A program made the translations under genes and the position numbers. Shown here in pieces: positions 24,285 through 36,424 of a stretch of DNA of 64,000 bases. The notes below the pieces were generated by a model. That model worked only from the letters and a program-made list of their open reading frames with translations, did no database searches and was not told the origin of the DNA. This stretch comes from Pseudomonadota bacterium. Its GTDB lineage: Bacteria; Pseudomonadota; Alphaproteobacteria; Sphingomonadales; Sphingomonadaceae. Numbering within the stretch: position 1 is the first letter of the stretch; each line of letters begins with the position of its first letter. Location of the stretch: the NCBI GenBank assembly GCA_021849075.1, contig JAJZTH010000001.1, forward strand, positions 1 to 64,000. Reading direction: 5' to 3'.

Positions 24285-26126
24285 TCAGAAACGGACACGC
24301 ACCCCGCCATAAGCGGCGCGGCCGAAGGTGTTATAGCCATAGGCCGTGGCGTATCCTTCATCGAACAGATTGTCGATGCGGCCATAGACTTCCAGATGAT
24401 CGCCGACCGGCAGGGACGCGCGCAGCCCGACCAGCGCATAGCCGTCCAGCCGCCGCGTGTTCGCCGCATCGTCTAAACTGTCGCCGACCATGGTGACGGT
24501 CGCGCCGGTCGACAGGCCGAAGAACCAGTCATAATCGGCCGAAACGCTGACCGCATTGGCGGCCCGGCGGGCAAGGCGATTGCCATAGGTGGCCGCTCCA
24601 GCCGAACGATCGCGCGCATCGACATAGCTGTAGCTGCCCGTCACCGTCAGCGCGTCGACCGGCTTCAGCGCAACCGATGCTTCCACGCCCTTGGCCCGCG
24701 TGCGATCCAGATTGCCATAGGTGAAGGTGGCGTTGTCATAATTGATCTGGTTGCGGGTATCGCGCCGGAACGCCGTCAACGACAGGGTCGCGCGGCCGCC
24801 GTCCAGGCTCTGGTCAAAGCCGATATCATAGCTTTTCGACCGTTCGGGCGTCAGCGCACGGTTGCCGCTATAGGTGTCGTACAGCTGATAGAGCGAGGGG
24901 GCCTTGAACCCCTCGCCATAGCTCAGGCGGATGTTGGTCGCGCCGGCATTGGGCGTATAATTGACGTTCGCGCCAAAGGTGGTCGCGCCGCCAAACTGGC
25001 TATGATCGTCATGGCGCAGGCCGCCGGTGACGGCCAGGCCCGTGAAGGGCTTCACGATCGCCAGACCATAGACGCTGTCGATGTTGATCTTCGCGCTCGC
25101 CGTGTCGCCAAAGCCGAAATAATCATAATCGGGCCGTTCATGCTCATAGCCGAAGACCAGCTTCGCCTGATCGACCGGGGCATAGACGCCCTCATATTCG
25201 AAGCGCAGATTGGTGCCCGAATAGCCATAATCCGGGTCGGTGCCGCGCACGAAATAATAGTCGCGGTCATTGCGCATCCAGGTGACGGCCGCGCGGTTGG
25301 TCAGCTTGCCGTCCAGCAGCGCCAGATTGACGCCGGCATAGCCGACATATTGATCGACCTTCGACACATCGGCGCTGTCGGCGGGCGCGCCGAAGAAGCT
25401 GTCATAATCGAGATCGGCGTGAATATAGTAACCGCGCAGGTCGAGGCTGAGATTATCGGTGAAGGCCAGCTTCAGCCGGGCATTGGTGGCGATATTCTCA
25501 TAGCCGTCCCGCTCGGTGCCGCCAGCGGCCGAGGAAATGCCGTCCGTACGATAATAGGCCGCGCCGATCCCGCCGGACGCGATACCGGCCGTGCCGGACA
25601 CATCGGCCTTGGCGTTAAGCGTATCGGCATAGCCATAATCGATCGAGGCGTTGCCGGCGAAGCCCTCGGCCGGCGTGCCGGTCATCAGGTTGACGACGCC
25701 GCCGATCGCCTGGCTGCCATAGACGATCGAGTTGGACCCGCGCAGCACTTCGACCCGGCGGATATTGGCGGTCAGCAAATGGCCGAAATCATAGCCGTCG
25801 CCAATGCCGCTGGGGTCGTTCACCTTCACCCCGTCGATCAGCACCAGCGTCTGCGTCGTTTCCGCCCCGCGCAGCGACACGCTGGTCACGCCGCCGGTCG
25901 ATCCGTTGCGGTTGAAACGCACGCCCGGCGTCGTCGCCAGCAGATCGACAATGTCGGTCGCCTGCCGCTGCTCGATCGTCTTTGTGTCGATGACGGTGAT
26001 CGCCTGCCCGACTTCGTCACGCGGCTGCTCGATGCCGGTGGCGGTGACGATGATTTCGTCATCCACCTGCGCCAGCGCCGGCGTCGCAGCCAGCAAGGCC
26101 GCGAGCGATATTCCCATTCTTACCAT
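24285..26126 (-). CDS. btuB: TonB-dependent vitamin B12 receptor
   Basis: 613 residues, BtuB length. Signal peptide ends at ALAQ. DDEIIVTATG is the TonB-box/plug start, VSLRGAETTQTLVLIDGVKVND and RRVEVLRGSNSIVYGSQAIGGVVNLMT are plug motifs. A 22-strand barrel follows, ending in a Phe-terminated strand (AYGGVRVRF). Controlled by the cobalamin riboswitch at 26311-26495, which settles the substrate. A second in-frame ATG at 26117 is an alternative start. Confidence 0.94.
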   Translation of the reverse strand: MVRMGISLAALLAATPALAQVDDEIIVTATGIEQPRDEVGQAITVIDTKTIEQRQATDIVDLLATTPGVRFNRNGSTGGVTSVSLRGAETTQTLVLIDGVKVNDPSGIGDGYDFGHLLTANIRRVEVLRGSNSIVYGSQAIGGVVNLMTGTPAEGFAGNASIDYGYADTLNAKADVSGTAGIASGGIGAAYYRTDGISSAAGGTERDGYENIATNARLKLAFTDNLSLDLRGYYIHADLDYDSFFGAPADSADVSKVDQYVGYAGVNLALLDGKLTNRAAVTWMRNDRDYYFVRGTDPDYGYSGTNLRFEYEGVYAPVDQAKLVFGYEHERPDYDYFGFGDTASAKINIDSVYGLAIVKPFTGLAVTGGLRHDDHSQFGGATTFGANVNYTPNAGATNIRLSYGEGFKAPSLYQLYDTYSGNRALTPERSKSYDIGFDQSLDGGRATLSLTAFRRDTRNQINYDNATFTYGNLDRTRAKGVEASVALKPVDALTVTGSYSYVDARDRSAGAATYGNRLARRAANAVSVSADYDWFFGLSTGATVTMVGDSLDDAANTRRLDGYALVGLRASLPVGDHLEVYGRIDNLFDEGYATAYGYNTFGRAAYGGVRVRF

Positions 26127-26310
26127 ATTAAGCCCCTATGGCGTCGCATTGCGACTGTCAGGGCCGGGGCGTCCGCGCAGGCGGTCGGATATTGGAGGGA
26201 TGACGCCATGTCCCGTCCGCAACCCGATGCGGCCCCGGCCGCACGGCGTCGCTCGACGGAAAACCCACCGTGCCCCGGCCATCCCCTGGACCAAAGCAGA
26301 GCGACCAAGC
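26127..26310 (-). other. btuB leader between riboswitch and start codon
   Basis: 184 bases between the conserved aptamer end and the btuB ATG, with no convincing gene. With the aptamer and the gap to fdhD this makes a 452-base stretch without a protein gene. It should contain the expression platform. GC-rich stretches complementary to each other are visible near 26225-26260, but I could not fix a single terminator or ribosome-site sequester. Confidence 0.45.
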
Positions 26311-26495
26311 GCCGGCAGGTCTCCTGGCTCGCGGGTCATGGCACGATGCATCAGCCTTCCCGGATTGACTCCAGTGGCCGGTCTTTCGACCCCCATGCAT
26401 CGCGCTATCCGCTTACAGTTGCAGGGACAGCCACGGAATTGGGCGCTCACGCACCCGCACCGCATTCCCGTTTTCAGCCCTTGCGGGCACCGGCG
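26311..26495 (-). promoter_or_regulatory. Cobalamin riboswitch
   Basis: Read on the minus strand: GGTGCCCGCAAGGGCTGAAA and CGGGAATGCGG at the 5' end, then CTGCAACTGTAAGCGG, then GCCACTG, GGGAAGG, and finally the B12 box GAGCCAGGAGACCTGCC. These are the conserved blocks of the adenosylcobalamin riboswitch in the correct order. It lies upstream of btuB, so corrinoid should switch off receptor synthesis. Confidence 0.96.
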
Positions 26496-26578
26496 CGATC
26501 TGTTTGCAGGGAAAGAACAGCCCCTCCCCACGCGCCGCGCTGTAGGGGAAAGCGGGGGCGAATCCAAGCAGGGCGCGA

Positions 26579-28048: not shown

Positions 28049-28816
28049 TCAGACGGAAAGCACCAGGCTCGCCGTCGCTTCCACTGGACAATGGCCGCCC
28101 GCCACCGCTTCGCCGATCAGCAGCAGCGTGGGGTCTTCGTCGCTGATCGTCTGCACCAGAAAGGCGAGCGCGCTGAGCTTCCCCCGGATCAGCCTTTCCT
28201 GGGGCAGCGAGACATTGACCGCCACCATGACGGGCGTTTCAGGGTCGCGCCCGGCCGCGATCAGATTGCGGCTGATCTCGCCCGCCGCCGCGCGGCCCAT
28301 ATAAATGCCCAGCGTGCCGCCCGGCCGCGCCAGCGCTTCCCAGTCGAGCCGGAGCGGTTCGCCCGCCTTCATATGCGCTGTCACCAAAGTCAGCCCCCGC
28401 GCCACACCGCGCAGGGTGAGCGAAGCGCAGCCGCTCGCTGCCGCCGCGCTGGCGGTGGTGATGCCGGGGCAGATATGGAAACGAATGCCGTCAGCGGCCA
28501 GATGCGCCATTTCCTCCGCCGACCGGCCGAATACCGACGGATCGCCGCCCTTCAGCCGCACGACCCGCTTGCCCGCCTTCGCCGCCGCCAGCAGCAGATC
28601 ATTGATGCTCTCCTGCGCCTTGCTGTGCCGGCCGGATCGCTTGCCGACGCTCACCCGCTCGACGCCGGGCGGGATCAGGTCCAGCACGCCCGGCCCGACC
28701 AGCGCATCGTAGAAGACGATCTGTGCCGCCGCGATCAGCTTTTCGGCCTTGCGGGTCAGCAGGTCCGGGTCGCCCGGCCCCGCCCCCACCAGCCAGACCT
28801 CGCCCGGCGCGATCAT
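28049..28816 (-). CDS. cobA: Uroporphyrinogen-III C-methyltransferase
   Basis: 255 residues, SUMT only with no CysG oxidase/chelatase part. WLVGAGPGDPDLLTRKA, VVRLKGGDPSVFGR and CPGITTASAAAASGCASLT are signature motifs. Makes precorrin-2, the precursor of siroheme needed by NirB. Its ATG overlaps the nirD stop (ATGA), tying siroheme supply to nitrite reductase synthesis. Whether it also feeds B12 synthesis cannot be told; the strong B12 uptake system suggests siroheme is its main use. Confidence 0.93.
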   Translation of the reverse strand: MIAPGEVWLVGAGPGDPDLLTRKAEKLIAAAQIVFYDALVGPGVLDLIPPGVERVSVGKRSGRHSKAQESINDLLLAAAKAGKRVVRLKGGDPSVFGRSAEEMAHLAADGIRFHICPGITTASAAAASGCASLTLRGVARGLTLVTAHMKAGEPLRLDWEALARPGGTLGIYMGRAAAGEISRNLIAAGRDPETPVMVAVNVSLPQERLIRGKLSALAFLVQTISDEDPTLLLIGEAVAGGHCPVEATASLVLSV

Positions 28817-29148
28817 GCCGCCGCCTGCAGCGCGGTCGGGCGCGCGATCAGGATACGGCCGCCTTCCTGCTTGACCGCGATGGTCGGCGTGCAGCCTTCG
28901 TCCGCGCCCTGCGCCTCGCCCGTTTTCAGGGCGATGTTCCAGTTGTGCAGCGGACAGGCGACGCTGTGGCCATGAACAATGCCCTGGCTGAGCGGTCCCT
29001 TCTTGTGCGGGCATTCATTGATCAGCGCGAACACATGATCGTCCCCGGTGCGGAATACCGCGATTTCCTTCTCCCCCGCCAGTTGCACCGTGCGGGCGCC
29101 GCGCTGGGGAATGTCGGCCAGCGTGCCAATGTCGATCCAATCGGTCAT
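28813..29148 (-). CDS. nirD: Nitrite reductase (NADH) small subunit
   Basis: 111 residues. Rieske-type fold with intact ligands: CPHKKGPLSQG and ACPLHNW (Cys-x-His ... Cys-x-x-His), so a [2Fe-2S] cluster is expected; some enteric NirD proteins lack these. Partner of NirB in six-electron reduction of nitrite to ammonium. 4-nt gap after nirB and overlap with cobA. Confidence 0.93.
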   Translation of the reverse strand: MTDWIDIGTLADIPQRGARTVQLAGEKEIAVFRTGDDHVFALINECPHKKGPLSQGIVHGHSVACPLHNWNIALKTGEAQGADEGCTPTIAVKQEGGRILIARPTALQAAA

Positions 29149-29152
29149 GATC

Positions 29153-31675
29153 TTACTCCGCGGCGATAGCGATGGGTTCAAGATGCTGGTGCAGTTCGGC
29201 ATGCTGGCCGGCCGCACGCTCGGCCCAGGGATCATCCTGGCTGAAGCTCTGCGAATAGAGGAAGCGCGCGCGCAGCGCTTCACGACCGGCTTCATCCTCC
29301 ACGATCCGCTGCTTGATATAATCGACGCCGATCCGCTCAATCCACGGCGCGGTCCGCTCCAGATAGCGCGCCTCCTCGCGATAGAGCTGGATGAAGGCGG
29401 CGCAATAATCCAGCGCCTCCTGCTCGGTCGCGACCTTGCACAGCAAATCAGTGGCGCGGACATGGATGCCGCCATTGCCGCCAACATGGAGTTCATAGCC
29501 GGAATCGACGCAGACCACGCCGAAATCCTTGATCGTCGCTTCGGCGCAGTTGCGGGGGCAGCCCGACGCCGCGATCTTGAATTTGTGGGGCATCCACGAA
29601 CCCCATGTCATCCGTTCGATCTTGACGCCAAGGCCGGTGGAATCCTGCGTGCCGAAGCGGCACCATTCGGACCCGACGCAGGTCTTCACCGTGCGCAGCG
29701 ATTTGCCATAGGCATGGCCAGACACCATCCCCGCGGCATTCAGGTCAGCCCAGACGGCAGGCAAATCTTCCTTCTTGATGCCGAAAATGTCGAGCCGCTG
29801 GCCGCCCGTCACCTTGACCATCGGCGCATTGAACTTCTCGACCACATCGGCGATCGCGCGCAGTTCGCGCGGGTTGGTCAGGCCGCCCCACATGCGCGGC
29901 ACGACCGAATAGGTGCCATCCTTCTGGATATTGGCGTGCATCCGTTCATTGACGAAGCGGCTCTGCTGATCGTCCTGATACTCGCCGGGCAGGGCGCACA
30001 GCAGATAATAGTTGAGCGCAGGACGGCAGGAGGAACAGCCATCGGGCGTCGACCAGTGCAGCAACTGCATCACTTCGGGGATGGAGCGCATATTCTGCGC
30101 CACGATCTCACGCCGTACATCGTCATGGGTGAAGCTGGTGCATTTGCACATCGTCTTGGGACCGGACTTGACCTCATCGCCCAGCACGACAGTCAGCAGA
30201 TTTTCGACAAGGCCGGTGCAGCTGCCGCAGCTGGCCGATGCCTTGCACCCGGCGCGCACCGCGTCGAGGCTGCAATTGCCCGCCTCGATGCAGGACACCA
30301 CCTGCCCCTTGCTGACGCCATTGCAGCCGCAAATCTCCGCATCGTCGGACAACGCGGCGACCGCCGCCAGCGGATCGAGTGCGCCGCCACCCGACGCAAA
30401 AGCCTGTCCCAGGATCAACCGTTCCCGGATTTCGCTGACATCTTCCTCGCGCTTGAGGAGATCGAAATACCAGCCGCCATCGACCGTATCGCCATAGAGC
30501 ACCGCGCCGACGATCCGGCCGTCCTTCACCACGACCCGCTTGTAGACCCCGCGTGAGGCGTCGCGCAGGACGATATCCTCGCACCCCGCCCCGCCCGAAA
30601 AATCACCGGCGGAAAAGACGTCCAGCCCGGCAACCTTCAGCTTGGTCGACGTAACCGATCCCTTGTAACCGCTATGCTGATCGGTCAGGCCGTCGGCCAG
30701 GCTGCGGCACATGTCCCACAGCGGCGCGACAAGGCCATAGACATTGCCGTCATGTTCCACGCATTCGCCGACCGCCAATATGTCGGGATCGCTCGTCACC
30801 ATATGATCGTCGACCTGAATGCCGCGATTGACCGCCAGCCCGGCTTCGCGAGCCAGCGCGGTCGACGGGCGGATGCCTACCGCCATGACGACCAGGCTGG
30901 CCGGGATTTCGCGGCCATCCTTCAGTCGGACGCCCTCGACCTTGCCTTCGCCATAAATCGCCTCCGTATTGGCGCCGGTCAGAATGGTCTGGCCGCGTCC
31001 TTCCAGCGCGGTCTTGAGCAGCCAACCCGCCGCTTCATCGAGCTGCCGCTCCATGAGCGTGTCCATCAGGTGGATGACCGTCACCTTCATGCCGCGCAGG
31101 GTCAGGCCATGCGCCGCCTCCAGCCCCAGCAGACCGCCGCCGATCACCACCGCATCGCCACCCGCTTCGGCGGCCGCTAGCATCGTGTCGACATCCTTCA
31201 TGTCGCGGAAGCTGATGACGCCGGGCAGGTCCTTGCCGGGAACCGGGATGATGAAGGGGTCCGACCCGGTGGCGATCAGCAGCTTGTCATAGCCCATGGT
31301 GCGACCCGACTGGCTCTTGACGGTCTTCGTGGCCCGATCGATCGCCGTCACGGGATCCCCCGCGATCAGCTCTATGCCATTATCGGCATACCATTCGCGC
31401 GTGTTGATGACGATATCGTCGAAGCTCTTTTCCCCCGCCAATACCGGCGAGAGCATGATGCGGTTGTAGTTCACATAGGGTTCTGCGCCGAAGATGGTGA
31501 CGCGATAGCGCCCCCCTCCCTTTTCCGGCTTGTCCCGCGCCAGCAATTCCTCGACCGCGCGGCAGCCGGCCATGCCATTGCCCACCACGACCAGATGTTC
31601 GCGGACATCCTCGAACGGCACCAGAGCATCGCCCTGCGCTTCGGCCCGACCGTCACCCCTGAGTTGCAATTCCAT
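29153..31675 (-). CDS. nirB: Nitrite reductase (NADH) large subunit
   Basis: 840 residues, full length. Order: FAD site VVVGNGMAGCRAVEEL (from about residue 29), NADH site VVIGGGLLGLEAAHGL (about 178), a BFD-like [2Fe-2S] domain (CGCNGVSKG ... CKASASCGSC), then the siroheme-[4Fe-4S] sulfite/nitrite reductase domain with TCVGSEWCRFG and ASGCPRNCAEA, giving Cys-x5-Cys and Cys-x3-Cys. Cytosolic, assimilatory. GGACCGGGG precedes the ATG. Expression should depend on the ANTAR leader at 31691-31792. Confidence 0.96.
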   Translation of the reverse strand: MELQLRGDGRAEAQGDALVPFEDVREHLVVVGNGMAGCRAVEELLARDKPEKGGGRYRVTIFGAEPYVNYNRIMLSPVLAGEKSFDDIVINTREWYADNGIELIAGDPVTAIDRATKTVKSQSGRTMGYDKLLIATGSDPFIIPVPGKDLPGVISFRDMKDVDTMLAAAEAGGDAVVIGGGLLGLEAAHGLTLRGMKVTVIHLMDTLMERQLDEAAGWLLKTALEGRGQTILTGANTEAIYGEGKVEGVRLKDGREIPASLVVMAVGIRPSTALAREAGLAVNRGIQVDDHMVTSDPDILAVGECVEHDGNVYGLVAPLWDMCRSLADGLTDQHSGYKGSVTSTKLKVAGLDVFSAGDFSGGAGCEDIVLRDASRGVYKRVVVKDGRIVGAVLYGDTVDGGWYFDLLKREEDVSEIRERLILGQAFASGGGALDPLAAVAALSDDAEICGCNGVSKGQVVSCIEAGNCSLDAVRAGCKASASCGSCTGLVENLLTVVLGDEVKSGPKTMCKCTSFTHDDVRREIVAQNMRSIPEVMQLLHWSTPDGCSSCRPALNYYLLCALPGEYQDDQQSRFVNERMHANIQKDGTYSVVPRMWGGLTNPRELRAIADVVEKFNAPMVKVTGGQRLDIFGIKKEDLPAVWADLNAAGMVSGHAYGKSLRTVKTCVGSEWCRFGTQDSTGLGVKIERMTWGSWMPHKFKIAASGCPRNCAEATIKDFGVVCVDSGYELHVGGNGGIHVRATDLLCKVATEQEALDYCAAFIQLYREEARYLERTAPWIERIGVDYIKQRIVEDEAGREALRARFLYSQSFSQDDPWAERAAGQHAELHQHLEPIAIAAE

Positions 31676-31690: not shown

Positions 31691-31792
31691 AAAAGAAAAA
31701 GGCCGCCATCCAGACCCCCGGTTCTAAAAACCGAAAGTCTGGATGGCGGCCTTGCCATCATCTGCGTCTTGATGGCCCGTCCCTGAACCATC
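31691..31792 (-). promoter_or_regulatory. ANTAR-type antitermination leader of nirB
   Basis: On the minus strand, hairpin P1 (31792-31771) has stem GATGGTTC/GGGCCATC and loop AGGGAC. Hairpin P2 (31759-31742) has stem GATGGC/GCCATC and loop AAGGCC. Both loops are six bases with A first and G fourth, the ANTAR target rule. P2's 3' arm is shared with the left arm of a 15-bp terminator (31751-31737 with 31715-31701) that ends in TTTTTCTTTT. P2 and terminator cannot form together. NasT is encoded 4 kb upstream. Confidence 0.85.
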
Positions 31793-31839
31793 GCGACTAT
31801 GTAGAGAAGGACAACCTTGTCCCTTGCACTGCACCATAA

Positions 31840-31871
31840 ACGGAATCGCCGATCGGCTCAAGCGATTCCGT
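31840..31871 (-). terminator. Hairpin after the porin gene
   Basis: ACGGAATCGC (31840-31849) pairs perfectly with GCGATTCCGT (31862-31871), and TTTA follows on the minus strand. It lies 12 nt past the porin stop and separates narK-porin from the nirB leader. Confidence 0.7.
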
Positions 31872-31883
31872 CATGGCTTTCCA

Positions 31884-33092
31884 TCAATAGGTCCAGTCGG
31901 CCTGCACCCATAATTTCTTCGTATCGGTCGCCATGCTCTTTGCATCATAATCGGCATAGCGGATCGACAGCGTGGTCTTGTTCACCTTCGCGGACGCGAG
32001 AAGATTGAGTTCATTGCCATAATGCTGGTCCAGCCGGTCGCTGTCGAACCGATGCCAGACTGCCTGCAATGAAACGCCAGACAATGGTCCCAGCTGCTTC
32101 CAACCATAGCCCCCGCCAACATAGAGATCGCGGATGCCATTGGCGGGCGTGGTCAGGAATTTGTCGGCCCAGCCCTGAAATTTGAAATTGGTGCCAAGCG
32201 GCGTCTGAAAACTGGTGAAGGGCGCGCCGCTGCTGGCGCCCAGCACTTCATAGCCGGCATTCAGCTTCCAGCCCCTGACGTCCAGCGTGGCGTCCGCCAG
32301 CCAATAATCGGCGCTATAGCCGTTGGGATTGCGGTGATAGTCCGACTGGCGGGCGTAACTGAGCTGATAGCTGACCTTCGCCGCCTTCGACAGCGACTGC
32401 GCGCCGGCCAGCCGCAATCCATAGGTCTGGCTGGACAGGCGGAACGCCTGCACGGCCGCTTCGTCCTGATCGACCAGATAGGCAAAGCCGGTCAGCGTGC
32501 CGAGGGGCGTGACATAGGACAGGTTGGCGAAGATATTGTCGCCGCCGACCGCCTGTTGCCGCGCGCCCCTGCCCTGAAAACCCCAGATGGTCCGCACCGA
32601 CCAGACATAGGCGACATCCAGCTTCAACCCCTTGGCCGGGGCCAGTTCGGCACGCACCGCATCGAAGGTCTGGCCATTGTAGCGAAAGGCGACGTTGCCG
32701 ACGAAACGCTCGTCATCCAGCGCGATTTTCTGCCGCCCGCCGGTCAGGGTCAGCGCCTTCGTCCTATATTGCAGTTGGGCGATATAGAGGGCGATATTTT
32801 CAGGATCGGCAATGATCGGCCGGGTGGCCGCGCCATTCACGCCGTCATAATAATCGTCGACCAGCGCCAGCGTCCCCTGCCCCACGACCGTCGCCGACAA
32901 TGCGCCGCTGCTGGCCGTCAGCCCGGCGCGGGCGCGCAAGGTGAGAGCGTCGGATTTTTCTTCGGCCAGCCCATCCTGATCGGCATGTTCGTAGCGCAGC
33001 CGCGCTTCGGCGACGGGTTTCAGGCTGATTTGCTGGGCGTAAGCCGGCCCTGCGACGGCCAGCATGGCCGCCGATGCTAAAAGATATTTCAT
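31884..33092 (-). CDS. Outer-membrane porin (alginate-export-like family)
   Basis: 402 residues with signal peptide ending PAYAQ. Beta-barrel pattern throughout, closing with a Trp/Tyr-terminated strand (KLWVQADWTY). Similar to the alginate export/porin proteins found in nitrate-assimilation clusters of sphingomonads: LRYEHADQDG and GRQKIALDDERFVGNVAFRYNGQTFDA are the recognisable pieces. Probably lets nitrate or nitrite cross the outer membrane, inferred from context. ATG 33092 is preferred to the GTG three codons upstream. Confidence 0.78.
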   Translation of the reverse strand: MKYLLASAAMLAVAGPAYAQQISLKPVAEARLRYEHADQDGLAEEKSDALTLRARAGLTASSGALSATVVGQGTLALVDDYYDGVNGAATRPIIADPENIALYIAQLQYRTKALTLTGGRQKIALDDERFVGNVAFRYNGQTFDAVRAELAPAKGLKLDVAYVWSVRTIWGFQGRGARQQAVGGDNIFANLSYVTPLGTLTGFAYLVDQDEAAVQAFRLSSQTYGLRLAGAQSLSKAAKVSYQLSYARQSDYHRNPNGYSADYWLADATLDVRGWKLNAGYEVLGASSGAPFTSFQTPLGTNFKFQGWADKFLTTPANGIRDLYVGGGYGWKQLGPLSGVSLQAVWHRFDSDRLDQHYGNELNLLASAKVNKTTLSIRYADYDAKSMATDTKKLWVQADWTY

Positions 33093-33172
33093 GGAAAGCA
33101 CGTCCCCCCTCGGACGAGATAAGATGCAACCCGAACGGGGCGGCGGTCATTGCCGCCGCCCTCCTCTCCAGA

Positions 33173-34417
33173 TCAGATGCGGGCGCCCGTCTTCCAGGTC
33201 GCGCGCCATTTGCCCTTAACCAGCGTCACGCCCAGGAGGGCGACGATCGCCAGCCCGGCAAAGATCAGAAAGCCGGGTGCAAAGCTGCCCGTCAGCTGCT
33301 TGGCAAGGCCCAGCGAACTGGCGAGATAGAAGCCGCCAATGCCGCCCGCCATGCCGACAAGGCCGGTCATGATGCCGATTTCGGCCTGAAAACGCTGCGG
33401 CACCAGCTGGAACACCGATCCGTTACCGGTGCCCAGCGCCAGCATCGCCAGCACGAAGCAGCCAAGGGCGGCGGGCAGGCTCGTCGCCTGGCTGACGCCC
33501 GCCAGAGCGATAGCCGCCACGACATAGACGATCATCAGCGCCTTCGACCCGCCGATCTTGTCGGCCAGCGCGCCGCCCATCGGGCGCACCAGCGACCCGG
33601 CGAAGACGCAGGCGGCGGTGCAATAACCCGCCACGATCGGCGTCAGGCCAAATTGGTCGGTGAAATAGATGGGCAGGCTGGCGGCCAGGCCCACGAACCC
33701 GCCGAAAGTAACGGCGTAAAAAGCCATCAACCACCAGGCATCAGCCTGCTTCAAAGGCTGGAAATACTCGACGATCTTCTTGGGTGCGGGCGCATTGGGC
33801 GCGTCCTTGGCCATGATCATGTAGAGGACGAAGACGATCGCCAGCGGGATGCAGGCCAGACCCAGAACCGCATTCCAGCCGAAAATCTTGGCCAGCACCG
33901 GCGCAAAGAGCGAGGCGAGCACCGTGCCCGAATTGCCCATGCCGGCAAGGCCCATCGCCTTGCCCTGATGCTCTGGCGGATACCAGCGGCTGGCGAGCGG
34001 CAGCGCGATCGCGAAGCTGGCGCCGGCAAAGCCAAGAATGACGCCCAGCGCCAGCGTGCCGCCAAAACTGTCGATCCCCGCAACCCAGGCGGTGAACAGG
34101 CCGGCGATGACGATGATCTGGCTGATCGCGCCCGACAATTTCGGCCCGATCCGGTCGACCAGCAGGCCGTTGACGACGCGCAACAACGCGCCGGCCAGCG
34201 TCGGCGTGGCGACCATCAGGCCCTTTTCGGCCGGGGTCAGCGCCAGCGTCTTGGAAATCATCGGCGCCAGCGGGCCGAGCAGCACCCACACCATGAAGGC
34301 AAGGTCGAAATAAAGAAAGGCAGCGATCAGGGTCGGCGCGTGGCCGGCCTTCCAGAAGCTGGTCGCGGGCGCAGATGCGGCGTCCTGTCCTTCGCGATCC
34401 CAATAAGCAGTTGCCAT
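33173..34417 (-). CDS. narK: Nitrate/nitrite transporter, NarK-type MFS
   Basis: 414 residues, about 12 membrane helices. The NNP-family motifs are there: GLLVDRIGPK, GFAGASFAIALPLASRWYPPEHQGKAMGLAGMGNSG (nitrate signature 1) and the second signature FGGFVGLAASLPIYF with GGIGGFYLA later. Imports nitrate or nitrite across the inner membrane. Start ATG 34417 has GGGGA 9 nt upstream; longer frames run through the leader terminator. Its own ANTAR-type leader precedes it. Confidence 0.93.
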   Translation of the reverse strand: MATAYWDREGQDAASAPATSFWKAGHAPTLIAAFLYFDLAFMVWVLLGPLAPMISKTLALTPAEKGLMVATPTLAGALLRVVNGLLVDRIGPKLSGAISQIIVIAGLFTAWVAGIDSFGGTLALGVILGFAGASFAIALPLASRWYPPEHQGKAMGLAGMGNSGTVLASLFAPVLAKIFGWNAVLGLACIPLAIVFVLYMIMAKDAPNAPAPKKIVEYFQPLKQADAWWLMAFYAVTFGGFVGLAASLPIYFTDQFGLTPIVAGYCTAACVFAGSLVRPMGGALADKIGGSKALMIVYVVAAIALAGVSQATSLPAALGCFVLAMLALGTGNGSVFQLVPQRFQAEIGIMTGLVGMAGGIGGFYLASSLGLAKQLTGSFAPGFLIFAGLAIVALLGVTLVKGKWRATWKTGARI

Positions 34418-34448
34418 GATACGTCCCCAATAAACGGAAATGGACACG

Positions 34449-34553
34449 AAAAAAGCCGCAGCCCGGACAGCATCCCTTGGGATGATCCGGTCAGCGGCTT
34501 TGCTGCGATATATGGTGAGGATGGCGGCCCCACCCTTGGGACGGCGCATCCAG
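34449..34553 (-). promoter_or_regulatory. ANTAR-type antitermination leader of narK
   Basis: On the minus strand, P1 (34542-34527) has stem GTCCC/GGGGC and loop AAGGGT, extended outward with one mismatch and a bulge to about 34553. P2 (34505-34492) has a short stem CAGC/GCTG and loop AAAGCC. Both hexaloops again show A1 and G4. P2 overlaps the left arm of a terminator (34500-34454) whose stems CCGGAtCATCCC/GGGATGctGTCCGG and AAGCCGC/GCGGCTT end in TTTTTT. P2 is weaker than in the nirB leader. Confidence 0.75.
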
Positions 34554-34631
34554 ATAGCGCGCTTCGTCGCGCGACCTCTATGTTATCTCGCGAATCGCAT
34601 CATGTTGCAAGGCACAAAATTCTGCGTCGAT

Positions 34632-35846
34632 TCAACGCGGCGCCGCAAAACCGGCAAGGAAATCATCGATCCGTTCAGGATCAAACACCCGACCGTCGAA
34701 GAAGCGATCCGGCCCCAGCGTCAACTCACCCCGGCGCGATCCCACCGCCAGCGGCAGGTCAACCGCGCCTTCCACCTTCATGCTCGCGCCGGGCATCGGC
34801 ATGTCGCTGTCTGCCAGCGCGCGGCGGAATATATCGGGACGAAACACCGCCGCCGCCTTTGCAGCCGTCGCAGCGTCATGCTCCACCATGTTCCAGCGCA
34901 CCAGTTGCGAATAGATCCACAGCGCTTGGCTGCGCCATGGAAAAGGCGTGGCTTCCCGGCTGAACAGCATGAAATCGGGACTGGCGATCGCCGCCTCCCC
35001 CGCTCGCGCCACGATCTGACCAGACAGGGCGCGCAGGATGAGGTCGGCGGGCTGGTCGACATAGCGCGGATCGGACAGCAGATCGGCCAATGCGGGATGA
35101 TTGGCCGGATCGTCGCACCATAGCGCCGCCTTCGCCAGCGCCCGCAGCAGCCGATCAACGGTATCGGGATTTTCCTCCATCCACGCTTCGCGGAAGGCCA
35201 GCACTTTCTCCACCCCGCGCTGCCATATGCGTTCGCCGATCGCCACGGTTTCGGCCAAGCCCGCCTCGACCGCCGCCGTGCCCCAAGGCTCGCCCGCAAT
35301 GAAGCCGTCAATCTCGCCCGCGCGCATCGCCTCCACCGTCAGCGATGGCGGCAATACGCGCAGCACCACGTCCCGATCGGGATCTATCCCTGCGCTCGCC
35401 AGCCAGTAACGCAGCATCAGCGCGTGGCTGGAGAAGCGATGGACCACGCCGATGACCGGCTTGCGCCGCCACAGGCCGATCGCGGCCGCAAAGTCATGCG
35501 CGGTGCCCAGCGGATCGGCCAGCCGCGCAGCGACGTTCTGCTCCAGCGCCTTGGCGAAATCCGTCGCCATCACCAGCATATTGCCGTTGACGTTCAGCTT
35601 GTAGGGGGCGGCCAGCGCGGCGGGCTGCTGGCTGAGGCCAAGCGTCACCGCAACGGTCAGTGGCGCCAGCATCTGCGCGGCATGCACCTGCCCATAGACC
35701 AGCCGGTCGCGCAACGTCGCCCAGCTGGTCGTCGGGACGAGATCGAGCGCCAGCCCCTCTTCTTCCGCAAAGCCCCGTTCGCGCGCCGCGACCAGCACGG
35801 CGGCGTCGTTCAGCGGCAGGAAGGCGATTTTCAAGTTGCTTGTCAT
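34632..35846 (-). CDS. nasS: Nitrate sensor NasS
   Basis: 404 residues without a signal peptide. It resembles NrtA/CmpA-type nitrate-binding proteins (KIAFLPLNDAAVLVAARERGF, GQVHAAQMLAPLTVAVTLG, FIAGEPWGTAAVEAG) but cytosolic, as known for NasS. NasS holds the ANTAR protein NasT when nitrate or nitrite is absent and releases it when ligand binds. Its start overlaps the nasT stop (ATGA), the expected coupling. The gap to narK holds the leader. Confidence 0.92.
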   Translation of the reverse strand: MTSNLKIAFLPLNDAAVLVAARERGFAEEEGLALDLVPTTSWATLRDRLVYGQVHAAQMLAPLTVAVTLGLSQQPAALAAPYKLNVNGNMLVMATDFAKALEQNVAARLADPLGTAHDFAAAIGLWRRKPVIGVVHRFSSHALMLRYWLASAGIDPDRDVVLRVLPPSLTVEAMRAGEIDGFIAGEPWGTAAVEAGLAETVAIGERIWQRGVEKVLAFREAWMEENPDTVDRLLRALAKAALWCDDPANHPALADLLSDPRYVDQPADLILRALSGQIVARAGEAAIASPDFMLFSREATPFPWRSQALWIYSQLVRWNMVEHDAATAAKAAAVFRPDIFRRALADSDMPMPGASMKVEGAVDLPLAVGSRRGELTLGPDRFFDGRVFDPERIDDFLAGFAAPR

Positions 35847-36424
35847 AGCCCTCCTCCCAACAGGTCGCTGGCGGTGATCAGCGCCTGCGCCACATCGACA
35901 ATGCGCTTGCCCTGATTCATCGCGCTCGACCGCAACAGCGCATAGGCGTCCTGTTCGGTCAGGCTGCGCTGGTTCATCAAAATGGATTTGGCGCGGTCGA
36001 TGATCTTGCGATCGGACAATGCCGTGCGCGCCTCGTCCAGTTCCGCCTGTATCTTTGCAAAGGCGTTGAAGCGCCGCACCGCCAGTTCCAGCACTGGCTT
36101 CACCCGTTCCTTGCGCAACCCATCCACCACATAGGCGGACACCCCGGCGTCGATCGCCGCGCCGATCATCGCCTCATCCGATTGGTCGACGAACATGGCG
36201 ATCGGTCGGGCCAACGCACGGCTGACAGTCAGCATTTCTTCCAGCGTATCGCGGCTGGGGCTGCCCAGATCCATCAGCACGACGTCGGGCGCCATCCGCT
36301 CGAGCCGCGCGACGAAGGCGCCGCGCGGGGGTACGATATGAATATCGTCATAGCCCGCCTCGCGCAGCCCTTCCTCCAGGACCGTCGCGCGCAAGCCGCT
36401 GTCGTCGATGATGACGATTCGCAT
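35843..36424 (-). CDS. nasT: ANTAR-domain antiterminator NasT
   Basis: 193 residues. Receiver-like domain 1-120 with Asp52 (VVLMDLGSPS), then the three-helix ANTAR RNA-binding domain at about 130-188 (DRKIIDRAKSILMNQ, TEQDAYALLRSSAMNQG, VDVAQALI). Free NasT binds two-hairpin leader RNAs and prevents termination. Candidate targets are present in the same cluster before nirB and narK. First gene of the nas block; 84 bp separate it from the TonB receptor. Confidence 0.94.
   Translation of the reverse strand: MRIVIIDDSGLRATVLEEGLREAGYDDIHIVPPRGAFVARLERMAPDVVLMDLGSPSRDTLEEMLTVSRALARPIAMFVDQSDEAMIGAAIDAGVSAYVVDGLRKERVKPVLELAVRRFNAFAKIQAELDEARTALSDRKIIDRAKSILMNQRSLTEQDAYALLRSSAMNQGKRIVDVAQALITASDLLGGGL

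Follow-up and report, generated by a model that had tools for sequence, protein, structure and literature searches.

The RNA leaders of narK and nirB in the window (the whole 64,000-nucleotide stretch of sphingomonad DNA analyzed here) each appear to contain three successive hairpins with six-base loops (hexaloops), designated P0, P1, and P2 in the order in which they emerge, and P2 in each shares bases with an intrinsic terminator, in its left arm. From their sequences, we consider with high confidence that both are ANTAR-type antitermination leaders read by NasT, the ANTAR protein encoded beside them together with NasS; that NasT causes antitermination here is very likely. The conserved triple array is what sets them apart from ordinary ANTAR leaders of the known type, and the additional hairpin, P0, is itself probably a NasT site. 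Positions of the leader elements in the window are as follows.

34582..34610, minus strand: candidate narK promoter, identified by consensus match only, TTGCAA-N17-GATAAC (alternative TAACAT, spacing 19)
34558..34573, minus strand: narK leader P0, CGCGC-GACGAA-GCGCG (G at loop positions 1 and 4)
34527..34542, minus strand: narK leader P1, GTCCC-AAGGGT-GGGGC (A at loop position 1, G at 4), enclosed by an outer GGATG/CATCC stem
34492..34505, minus strand: narK leader P2 (antiterminator), CAGC-AAAGCC-GCTG
34449..34501, minus strand: narK intrinsic terminator, its left arm sharing the P2 loop and 3′ arm, with a T tract at 34454-34449
31833..31861, minus strand: candidate nirB promoter, identified by consensus match only, TTGAGC-N17-TATGGT
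31807..31824, minus strand: nirB leader P0, AGGGAC-AAGGTT-GTCCTT, 1–2 nucleotides (nt) past the predicted start
31771..31792, minus strand: nirB leader P1, GATGGTTC-AGGGAC-GGGCCATC
31742..31759, minus strand: nirB leader P2 (antiterminator), GATGGC-AAGGCC-GCCATC
31691..31753, minus strand: nirB intrinsic terminator, a stem of 26 base pairs (bp) with a T tract at 31700-31691

Two probable ANTAR-type leaders in one gene cluster

A sequence-only reading of the same DNA had proposed two hexaloop hairpins before each gene, with A at loop position 1 (A1) and G at position 4 (G4). These four hairpins were found where it had placed them (AGGGAC and AAGGCC before nirB, AAGGGT and AAAGCC before narK, with A1 and G4 throughout), as were the overlap of the second hairpin with the terminator left arm in each leader, the two minus-strand T tracts, the adjoining nasS and nasT genes (Pfam), and the 4-bp stem of narK P2. 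Its assignment of the leaders to the adjacent NasS-NasT pair is probable, supported by covariation, the terminator overlap, and the NasT residues described below, while the number of hairpins per leader seems to be three and not two. The A1 rule held for P1 and P2 of both leaders and not for P0 of the narK leader in the window, which carries G1.

A first scanner, which searched both strands for two hexaloop hairpins of the A1/G4 kind with a terminator overlapping them, returned only the narK and nirB leaders from the window; when the window was shuffled 100 times (first order), the sites averaged 0.03 per shuffle, with a maximum of 1 and no shuffle containing two. An Rfam scan, at the gathering cut-off and at E ≤ 10, gave no match describing either leader. 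The linker between P1 and P2 measures 11 nt in nirB and 21 nt in narK, inside the 2–25 nt curation range of PMC8164766. In the minimum-energy fold, nirB P0 (AAGGTT) and narK P1 (AAGGGT) close via an A-U pair into a tetraloop, so the hexaloop is not the sole reading of these two hairpins.

A third hairpin with the same loop signature is conserved in relatives

Relatives were collected by a NasT-based scan, from which the best 80 of 182 loci were taken. In these 80 loci the first scanner located 144 P2 sites, compared with 1–3 in five shuffles, and regions upstream of narK and nirB were then chosen via protein alignment to avoid a motif-based choice. The terminator tail pattern was present in 77 of 79 narK and 76 of 78 nirB upstream regions (window included). 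Exclusions concerned loci with no match to the gene (nirB, L013, L079, and L084; narK, L013 and L079), leaders with no terminator tail (nirB, L060 and L072; narK, L044 and L066), and leaders with no P2 core (nirB, L063; narK, L072). Dereplication and location of P2 yielded 62 narK and 56 nirB leaders, 60 and 47 of which were aligned; the remainder comprised narK L060 and L084 and nirB L042, L059, L065, L066, L071, L073, L080, L082, and L085. An A1/G4 hexaloop is present at −66 in L042, where the stem rule had chosen a different hairpin.

P0 was searched for by stem alone, leaving the loop sequence unconstrained. A hairpin with a six-base loop was found ~65 nt before the P2 loop in 68 of 75 nirB and 74 of 76 narK leaders, and loop position 4 was G in 49/50 nirB and 57/60 narK dereplicated cases. 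Across the aligned leaders, the C-G closing pair and G4 were invariant in all six hairpin classes (three hairpins in each of two leaders) and loop position 1 was always a purine, being G in 46 of the 60 narK P0 hairpins. The remaining loop positions vary to differing extent: variation is free in P1, while position 6 of nirB P0 is T in 46/47 and positions 2 and 5 of narK P0 are A in 54/60 and 55/60, respectively. The resulting signature, C-RNNGNN-G, occurs in the P0 zone of 48 of the 56 nirB and 59 of the 62 narK leaders; among stem-selected hexaloop hairpins its density is 0.048–0.053 per nt in this zone versus 0.0007–0.0028 upstream or in genes, at least 18-fold denser than in these controls.

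The loops are regularly spaced, at 33–38 nt (P0-P1) and 31–32 nt (P1-P2) in nirB and at 28–34 nt and 32–42 nt in narK. Upstream of nirB, a sigma-70-like pattern (TTGA..-N16-18-TA[TA]...) with a spacing of 16–17 was present in 45 of the 50 dereplicated leaders with P0; in 44 of those 45 its end lies 13–15 nt ahead of the P0 loop, a position that puts the predicted start in the window 1–2 nt before P0. The narK promoter is less clear, with a TTGC-based pattern in 30 of the 60 narK leaders with P0.

Compensatory change in the stems supports P0 and P1 as RNA structures. Double changes were observed at 4/6 pairs of P0 and 8/8 pairs of P1 in nirB, and at 3/5 pairs of P0, 3/5 pairs of P1, and 4/5 pairs of the P1 outer stem in narK. 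None of 500 shuffles matched the three-hairpin structures in covariation score or in percentage paired, and sliding these structures along the alignment lowered the paired cells from 87% and 93% to at most 60%. A candidate pairing of the nirB P0 3′ arm (GTCC) with the P1 loop (GGAC), judged by eye, was rejected, as it is broken by P1 loops such as AGGGTA and ACTGAC.

These stem changes also bear on whether P0 might be a DNA rather than an RNA element. Promoter-proximal palindromes are common operators, and P0, which covers roughly the first 20 nt of the predicted transcript, could in principle be an inverted repeat recognized by a transcription factor at the start site. Its arms, though, change by compensation (GGAC/GTCC, GGGC/GCCC, AGGC/GCCT, AGAC/GTCT), and the invariant points are the loop G4 and the closing pair instead of the whole arms; owing to the compensatory changes we set the operator aside as highly improbable.

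Some repeats near the promoters were recorded as well. An inverted repeat, GGAATCG...CGATTCC (window 31842-31869), covers the −35 box of nirB together with some of the spacer, and GCGATTC is also present in the narK promoter spacer. A stretch like GCAAAAA...CTTGC or TTTTGTGCCTTGCAA (window 34605-34620) recurs, by eye, upstream of the narK, NrtA-like, and nasA leaders; it is longer than a −35 box and is possibly a nitrogen-regulator site.

NasT retains RNA-contact residues

The combination of NasT (receiver plus ANTAR domain) beside NasS (NMT1/NrtA-like binding protein) is the architecture of the NasS-NasT system (Pfam), and in the genome from which the window comes no other ANTAR protein scores above the cut-off. 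NasT was aligned to EutV (6wsh, 6ww6), Rv1626, NasR, and AmiR; we counted the conversion from chain to published EutV numbering (two lower) ourselves. The EutV RNA-contact residues R142, K143, Y164, and M172 have identical equivalents in the NasT of the window. The equivalent of K147 is R there and K in 12 of 80 relatives, and that of K143 is R in one of the 80.

In the receiver, Asp 52 is kept, and Val 79 and Asp 101 occupy the Ser/Thr and Lys positions (80/80 relatives). These replacements fit control by NasS rather than by phosphate, and the sequence is thus consistent with a receiver that is not used as a phosphate switch; AmiR has likewise been described as a pseudo-receiver (PMC8934654).

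Covariance models co-occur with NasT

A covariance-model search of relatives, which the sequence-only reading had named as a check on itself, returned strong matches. Models were built from the triple arrays (R1 from nirB, R2 from narK) and searched in 298 family genomes, of which 95 have NasT and 203 lack it. Strong matches were obtained in 14 genomes with R1 (E ≤ 1e-5) and 24 genomes with R2 (E ≤ 1e-4), all of them carrying NasT, and no strong match to either model occurred among the 203 NasT-less family genomes (hypergeometric values of 6e-8 and 1e-13, uncorrected for relatedness).

Leaders were also found away from nasT, before narK in G008 and before an NrtA-like gene in G046. In one cluster (L186, G031 C19), with nasT on another contig, three model matches lie before an NrtA-like gene, after a porin-like gene toward narK, and before nirB. 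A weak match by both models in the own genome (C13:244231) was rejected, with one 4-bp hexaloop stem nearby and no array with a terminator. Among loci L156-L177, an array with a terminator was present only at L162 (the nasA leader described below) and at L164, whose one weak array is differently composed.

A probable nasA leader and wider distribution

That one NasT acts at two leaders, as proposed earlier, is likely, and the NasT regulon probably also takes in a leader before nasA on another contig. In the window nasA is not downstream of nirD, the position that it occupies in 10 of 20 divergent loci of the family (in the other ten, nirD was not seen in the sequence stretch examined); a nasA-like match lies within 12 kb of nasT in the five other same-genus genomes with NasT. 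In the own genome, contig C46 encodes a fused nitrate reductase-flavodoxin-reductase of 1346 amino acids (aa), immediately preceded by two hexaloops, AATGGT and AAAGGC, with a spacer hairpin bearing a tetraloop between them, and then by a terminator of 21 bp that ends in a T tract.

G000 contig C46, L178:9190-9300, outside the window: probable nasA leader

This leader has two hexaloops, not three, and its model scores are weak. On the own genome R1 gave 14.6 bits (E 2.8) and the leader was not among the R2 matches at E ≤ 10; in a 205-kb set the E values were 0.16 (R1) and 0.34 (R2). Its designation as a probable third NasT leader rests on position, the terminator, and the same layout, seen by eye, before 82%-identical nasA genes in G123 and G156. 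The nasA contig also contains an open reading frame (ORF) at L178:215-1657 with TIR_2 / ThsB_TIR Pfam matches (E ~4e-7), possibly a defence gene.

Beyond close relatives, the first scanner (A1, 4-bp stems) under-counted P0 and missed arrays in divergent loci; a second scanner, which accepted a purine at position 1 and 3-bp P2 stems, found more. With it, arrays were detected in 8 of the 20 divergent family loci and in none of the other 12, including three-hexaloop arrays at L118, L123, and L131 and a less regular one at L120. In other families of the class, arrays were present in 10 of 27 loci (26 genomes) and absent from 17. Eight of these 10 were inspected (L219 and L243 being left out) and show mostly one upstream hexaloop; a further G4 hexaloop between this and P2 was seen, by eye or scanner, at L224, L235, and L237, with L230 ambiguous. 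Shuffles of all 47 loci in four rounds gave 0–2 arrays and no triple. The third hairpin may thus be older than the family, which we regard as a lead rather than a result.

Gene cluster

The source of the window is a sphingomonad, the top NasT matches being from Sphingobium at 97–98% identity. The minus-strand gene order is nasT, nasS, leader, narK, porin-like gene, leader, nirB, nirD, and tetrapyrrole methylase.

35843..36424, minus strand: nasT, degenerate receiver plus ANTAR domain, 193 aa (Pfam ANTAR 67.8 bits, Response_reg 35.3 bits)
34632..35846, minus strand: nasS, NMT1_2-type binding protein, probable nitrate sensor (Pfam NMT1_2 218.5 bits), with a 4-base overlap with nasT
33173..34417, minus strand: narK, MFS transporter (Pfam MFS_1)
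31884..33101, minus strand: porin-like outer-membrane protein (weak Pfam Alginate_exp match, 23.1 bits, under the 25.2 cut-off)
29153..31675, minus strand: nirB, siroheme nitrite reductase large subunit (Pfam NIR_SIR, Fer2_BFD, Pyr_redox_2)
28813..29160, minus strand: nirD, Rieske small subunit (Pfam Rieske, Rieske_2)
28049..28999, minus strand: tetrapyrrole methylase (Pfam TP_methylase)

The methylase is probably SUMT making the sirohaem precursor, to judge from gene position. In some relatives, the porin-like gene was not found between narK and nirB. Sphingobium lactosutens DS20 (L020, L056) has two nasTS-narK-porin-nirB clusters on two contigs, with both leaders in each. Elsewhere in the window, a cobalamin riboswitch at 26297-26509 (Rfam 105.5 bits) lies ahead of an ORF at 24285-26126, a putative outer-membrane receptor by its appearance.

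Weighing NasT-dependent antitermination against its alternatives

We propose the following course of events, in which the nitrate switch is adopted from Paracoccus denitrificans, where nitrate or nitrite releases NasT for leader binding and free NasT is roughly hexameric (PMC3795266). When neither nitrate nor nitrite is present, NasS would hold NasT, and transcription, beginning just before P0, would halt at the terminator. Nitrate or nitrite would cause NasS to release NasT, which would then bind the hairpins as they emerge (P0, P1, and P2, ~32 nt apart) and stabilize P2; P2 would take the terminator left arm, allowing polymerase to read into narK-porin or nirBD. P0 might serve as an extra loading site, raising the chance that P2 is captured in time.

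Stabilities differ between the two leaders, with a mean P2 energy of −8.8 kcal/mol in nirB (75 leaders) versus −5.0 in narK (76 leaders) and a mean terminator energy of −43.3 versus −30.9 kcal/mol in the same sets; the gap, on which the earlier suggestion of leaders that may differ in sensitivity rests, is thus kept across relatives. Independent control of transporter/porin and reductase, as suggested earlier, found no support, given that no second ANTAR protein passes the cut-off; with a single NasT, it is simplest to suppose that both are induced together, possibly with different gain.

Several results weigh against this account. Covariation says nothing about P2, because its pairs hardly vary in the aligned leaders (5/6 never vary in nirB; stem and G4 are invariant in narK), and 20 of 500 shuffles matched the number of double-changed pairs in nirB P0-P2. 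The nirB terminator is supported by covariation in sequence (double changes at 6/17 pairs; score 0.175 versus at most 0.075 when slid), whereas the narK terminator fails these controls: a +1 slide outscores it (0.214 vs 0.111), 41% of cells are paired across its inner six pairs, and shuffles equal it on several covariation measures. Its outer eight pairs hardly vary, with 99.6% of cells paired, and the slide probably scores higher because the inner loop is misaligned; the mean energy and T tract still argue for this terminator. From outside the family, deleting nasT in Bradyrhizobium raised narK (PMC6759348).

There is some circularity in the co-occurrence test: NasT led to the loci that went into the models, and some of the 298 genomes look to be of the same strains (G076, for example, matches L059 by position); its informative part is the NasT-less genomes without a strong match. 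At E ≤ 0.01, 6 of 27 genomes matched by R1 and 2 of 29 matched by R2 lack NasT, with E ~1e-3 or worse. The leaders could be imagined to respond to something besides NasT, or their hairpins to terminate constitutively, and the lack of a descriptive Rfam match would agree with this. All 24 strong narK-leader genomes and all 14 strong nirB-leader genomes carry NasT, subject to the same circularity, and the sole ANTAR protein over the cut-off keeps its RNA-contact residues, leaving such alternatives very little probability.

A more serious contender holds that P0 is a plain 5′-end hairpin protecting the mRNA, the ANTAR element consisting of P1 and P2 only, as in the textbook model. P0 is located at the predicted 5′ end, and it is absent from −65 in seven Sphingomonas nirB leaders (L065, L066, L071, L073, L080, L082, and L085), in six of which (all except L066) one hexaloop 54–58 nt before P2 stands in place of P0 and P1. 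In nirB P0, pairing between loop positions 1 and 6 is possible in 46 of the 47 aligned leaders (A-U 35, G-U 11), so that by sequence the stem may be longer and the loop only four bases; elsewhere such pairing is possible in 17/60 narK P0 hairpins, 9/47 (nirB) and 14/60 (narK) P1 hairpins, and no P2. Further, narK P0 mostly carries G1, though A1 was reported to be essential for NasR at nasF (PMC3369936). A stability role, on the other hand, need not keep position 1 a purine or fix G4 and the C-G closing pair amid compensating stem changes, and P0 recurs in three divergent family loci as well as in two different leaders, where the spacing is nearly equal. In the EutV-RNA crystal structure, moreover, G4 is contacted and A1 is not (PMC8934654). 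On balance, we consider the protective hairpin unlikely, if clearly less so than the operator, and favor P0 as a NasT site. Separately, complementary segments were seen by eye between the hexaloop and P2 in some of the six Sphingomonas leaders and may shorten the distance.

If P0 is a NasT site, its role as a first loading station is a plausible but somewhat less than even prospect, the alternatives being a decoy or avidity. As a decoy or threshold device, P0-P1 would form a second, competing dual motif that keeps NasT off P2. The P0-P1 and P1-P2 spacings are indeed alike, and the EutV-sequestering EutX RNA bears an extra G4 hexaloop (PMC8934654); P0, however, emerges first and in cis, and loading near the exit channel should, as a matter of argument, help more than hurt. 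We judge a competing motif unlikely, slightly more so than the protective hairpin. More broadly, we tentatively put forward, as the less probable outcome, that NasT leaders of sphingomonads, perhaps of alphaproteobacteria at large, are three-station relays in which a NasT dimer steps from P0 to P1 to P2 at ~32-nt intervals, P0 at the extreme 5′ end catching the dimer before the terminator region is transcribed.

Relation to known systems and significance

The dual hexaloop motif, the terminator overlap rule, and matches upstream of nitrite reductase and nitrate/nitrite transporters have been described (Ramesh et al. 2012, PMC3369931). The leaders examined here share with those systems (EutV at eutP/G/S/A, NasR at nasF, AmiR at amiE) the A1/G4 hexaloops, the P2-terminator overlap, a cognate ANTAR protein, and nitrogen genes; they differ in that both have an additional hairpin, P0, whose loop follows the shared signature, in the frequent G at position 1, and in the C-G closing pair, invariant across the aligned leaders. 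In the accessible text, the dual-hexaloop criterion states no upper limit of two hairpins. Multiple leaders under one regulator are not new, since they have been reported for EutV (PMC3369931) and NasT (PMC6759348).

The Paracoccus denitrificans NasS-NasT system shares the nasT-nasS order and a leader right behind nasS (PMC3795266, PMC5424462). There, a single operon has two named hairpins, HI and HII, 137 and 91 bp upstream of nasA, of which HI is required for growth on nitrate and HII is not (PMC5424462), compared with three hairpins per leader, two leaders in one cluster, and a probable third elsewhere in the present case; the 2013 Paracoccus paper mentions a series of hairpins (data not shown; PMC3795266). 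In Bradyrhizobium diazoefficiens, hairpins are likewise predicted for one NasT in several leaders, those of narK and nirA among them; narK operon genes rose upon nasT deletion, and triple arrays go unmentioned in the accessible text (PMC6759348). EutX / rli55 combines a dual motif with an extra single G4 hexaloop, as do the leaders here, and is a trans-acting RNA that soaks up EutV, unlike these gene leaders (PMC8934654). We found no description of ANTAR leaders with three hexaloops in the open literature, a search that leaves subscription journals mostly uncovered and their absence unproven.

The same structural study asks why two hairpins are needed when the dimer holds only one, and proposes successive binding (PMC8934654). 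A relay, if true, would extend this successive-binding model of EutV and explain the need for more than one hairpin, and how each operon responds to nitrate dose would depend on how many stations its leader has and how strong they are. The leaders constitute a natural family with three hairpins at even intervals, found in two leaders of one genome and reduced in some relatives, that lets station number and spacing vary along natural lines. Their conservation gives a sharper consensus, C-R-N-N-G-N-N-G, with a fixed G4 and any purine at position 1; this is at odds with the reported need of NasR for A1 and could improve searches for ANTAR RNAs. For the organism, the arrangement suggests a single NasT gating all of nitrate transport, nitrate reduction, and nitrite reduction at a point past transcription initiation.

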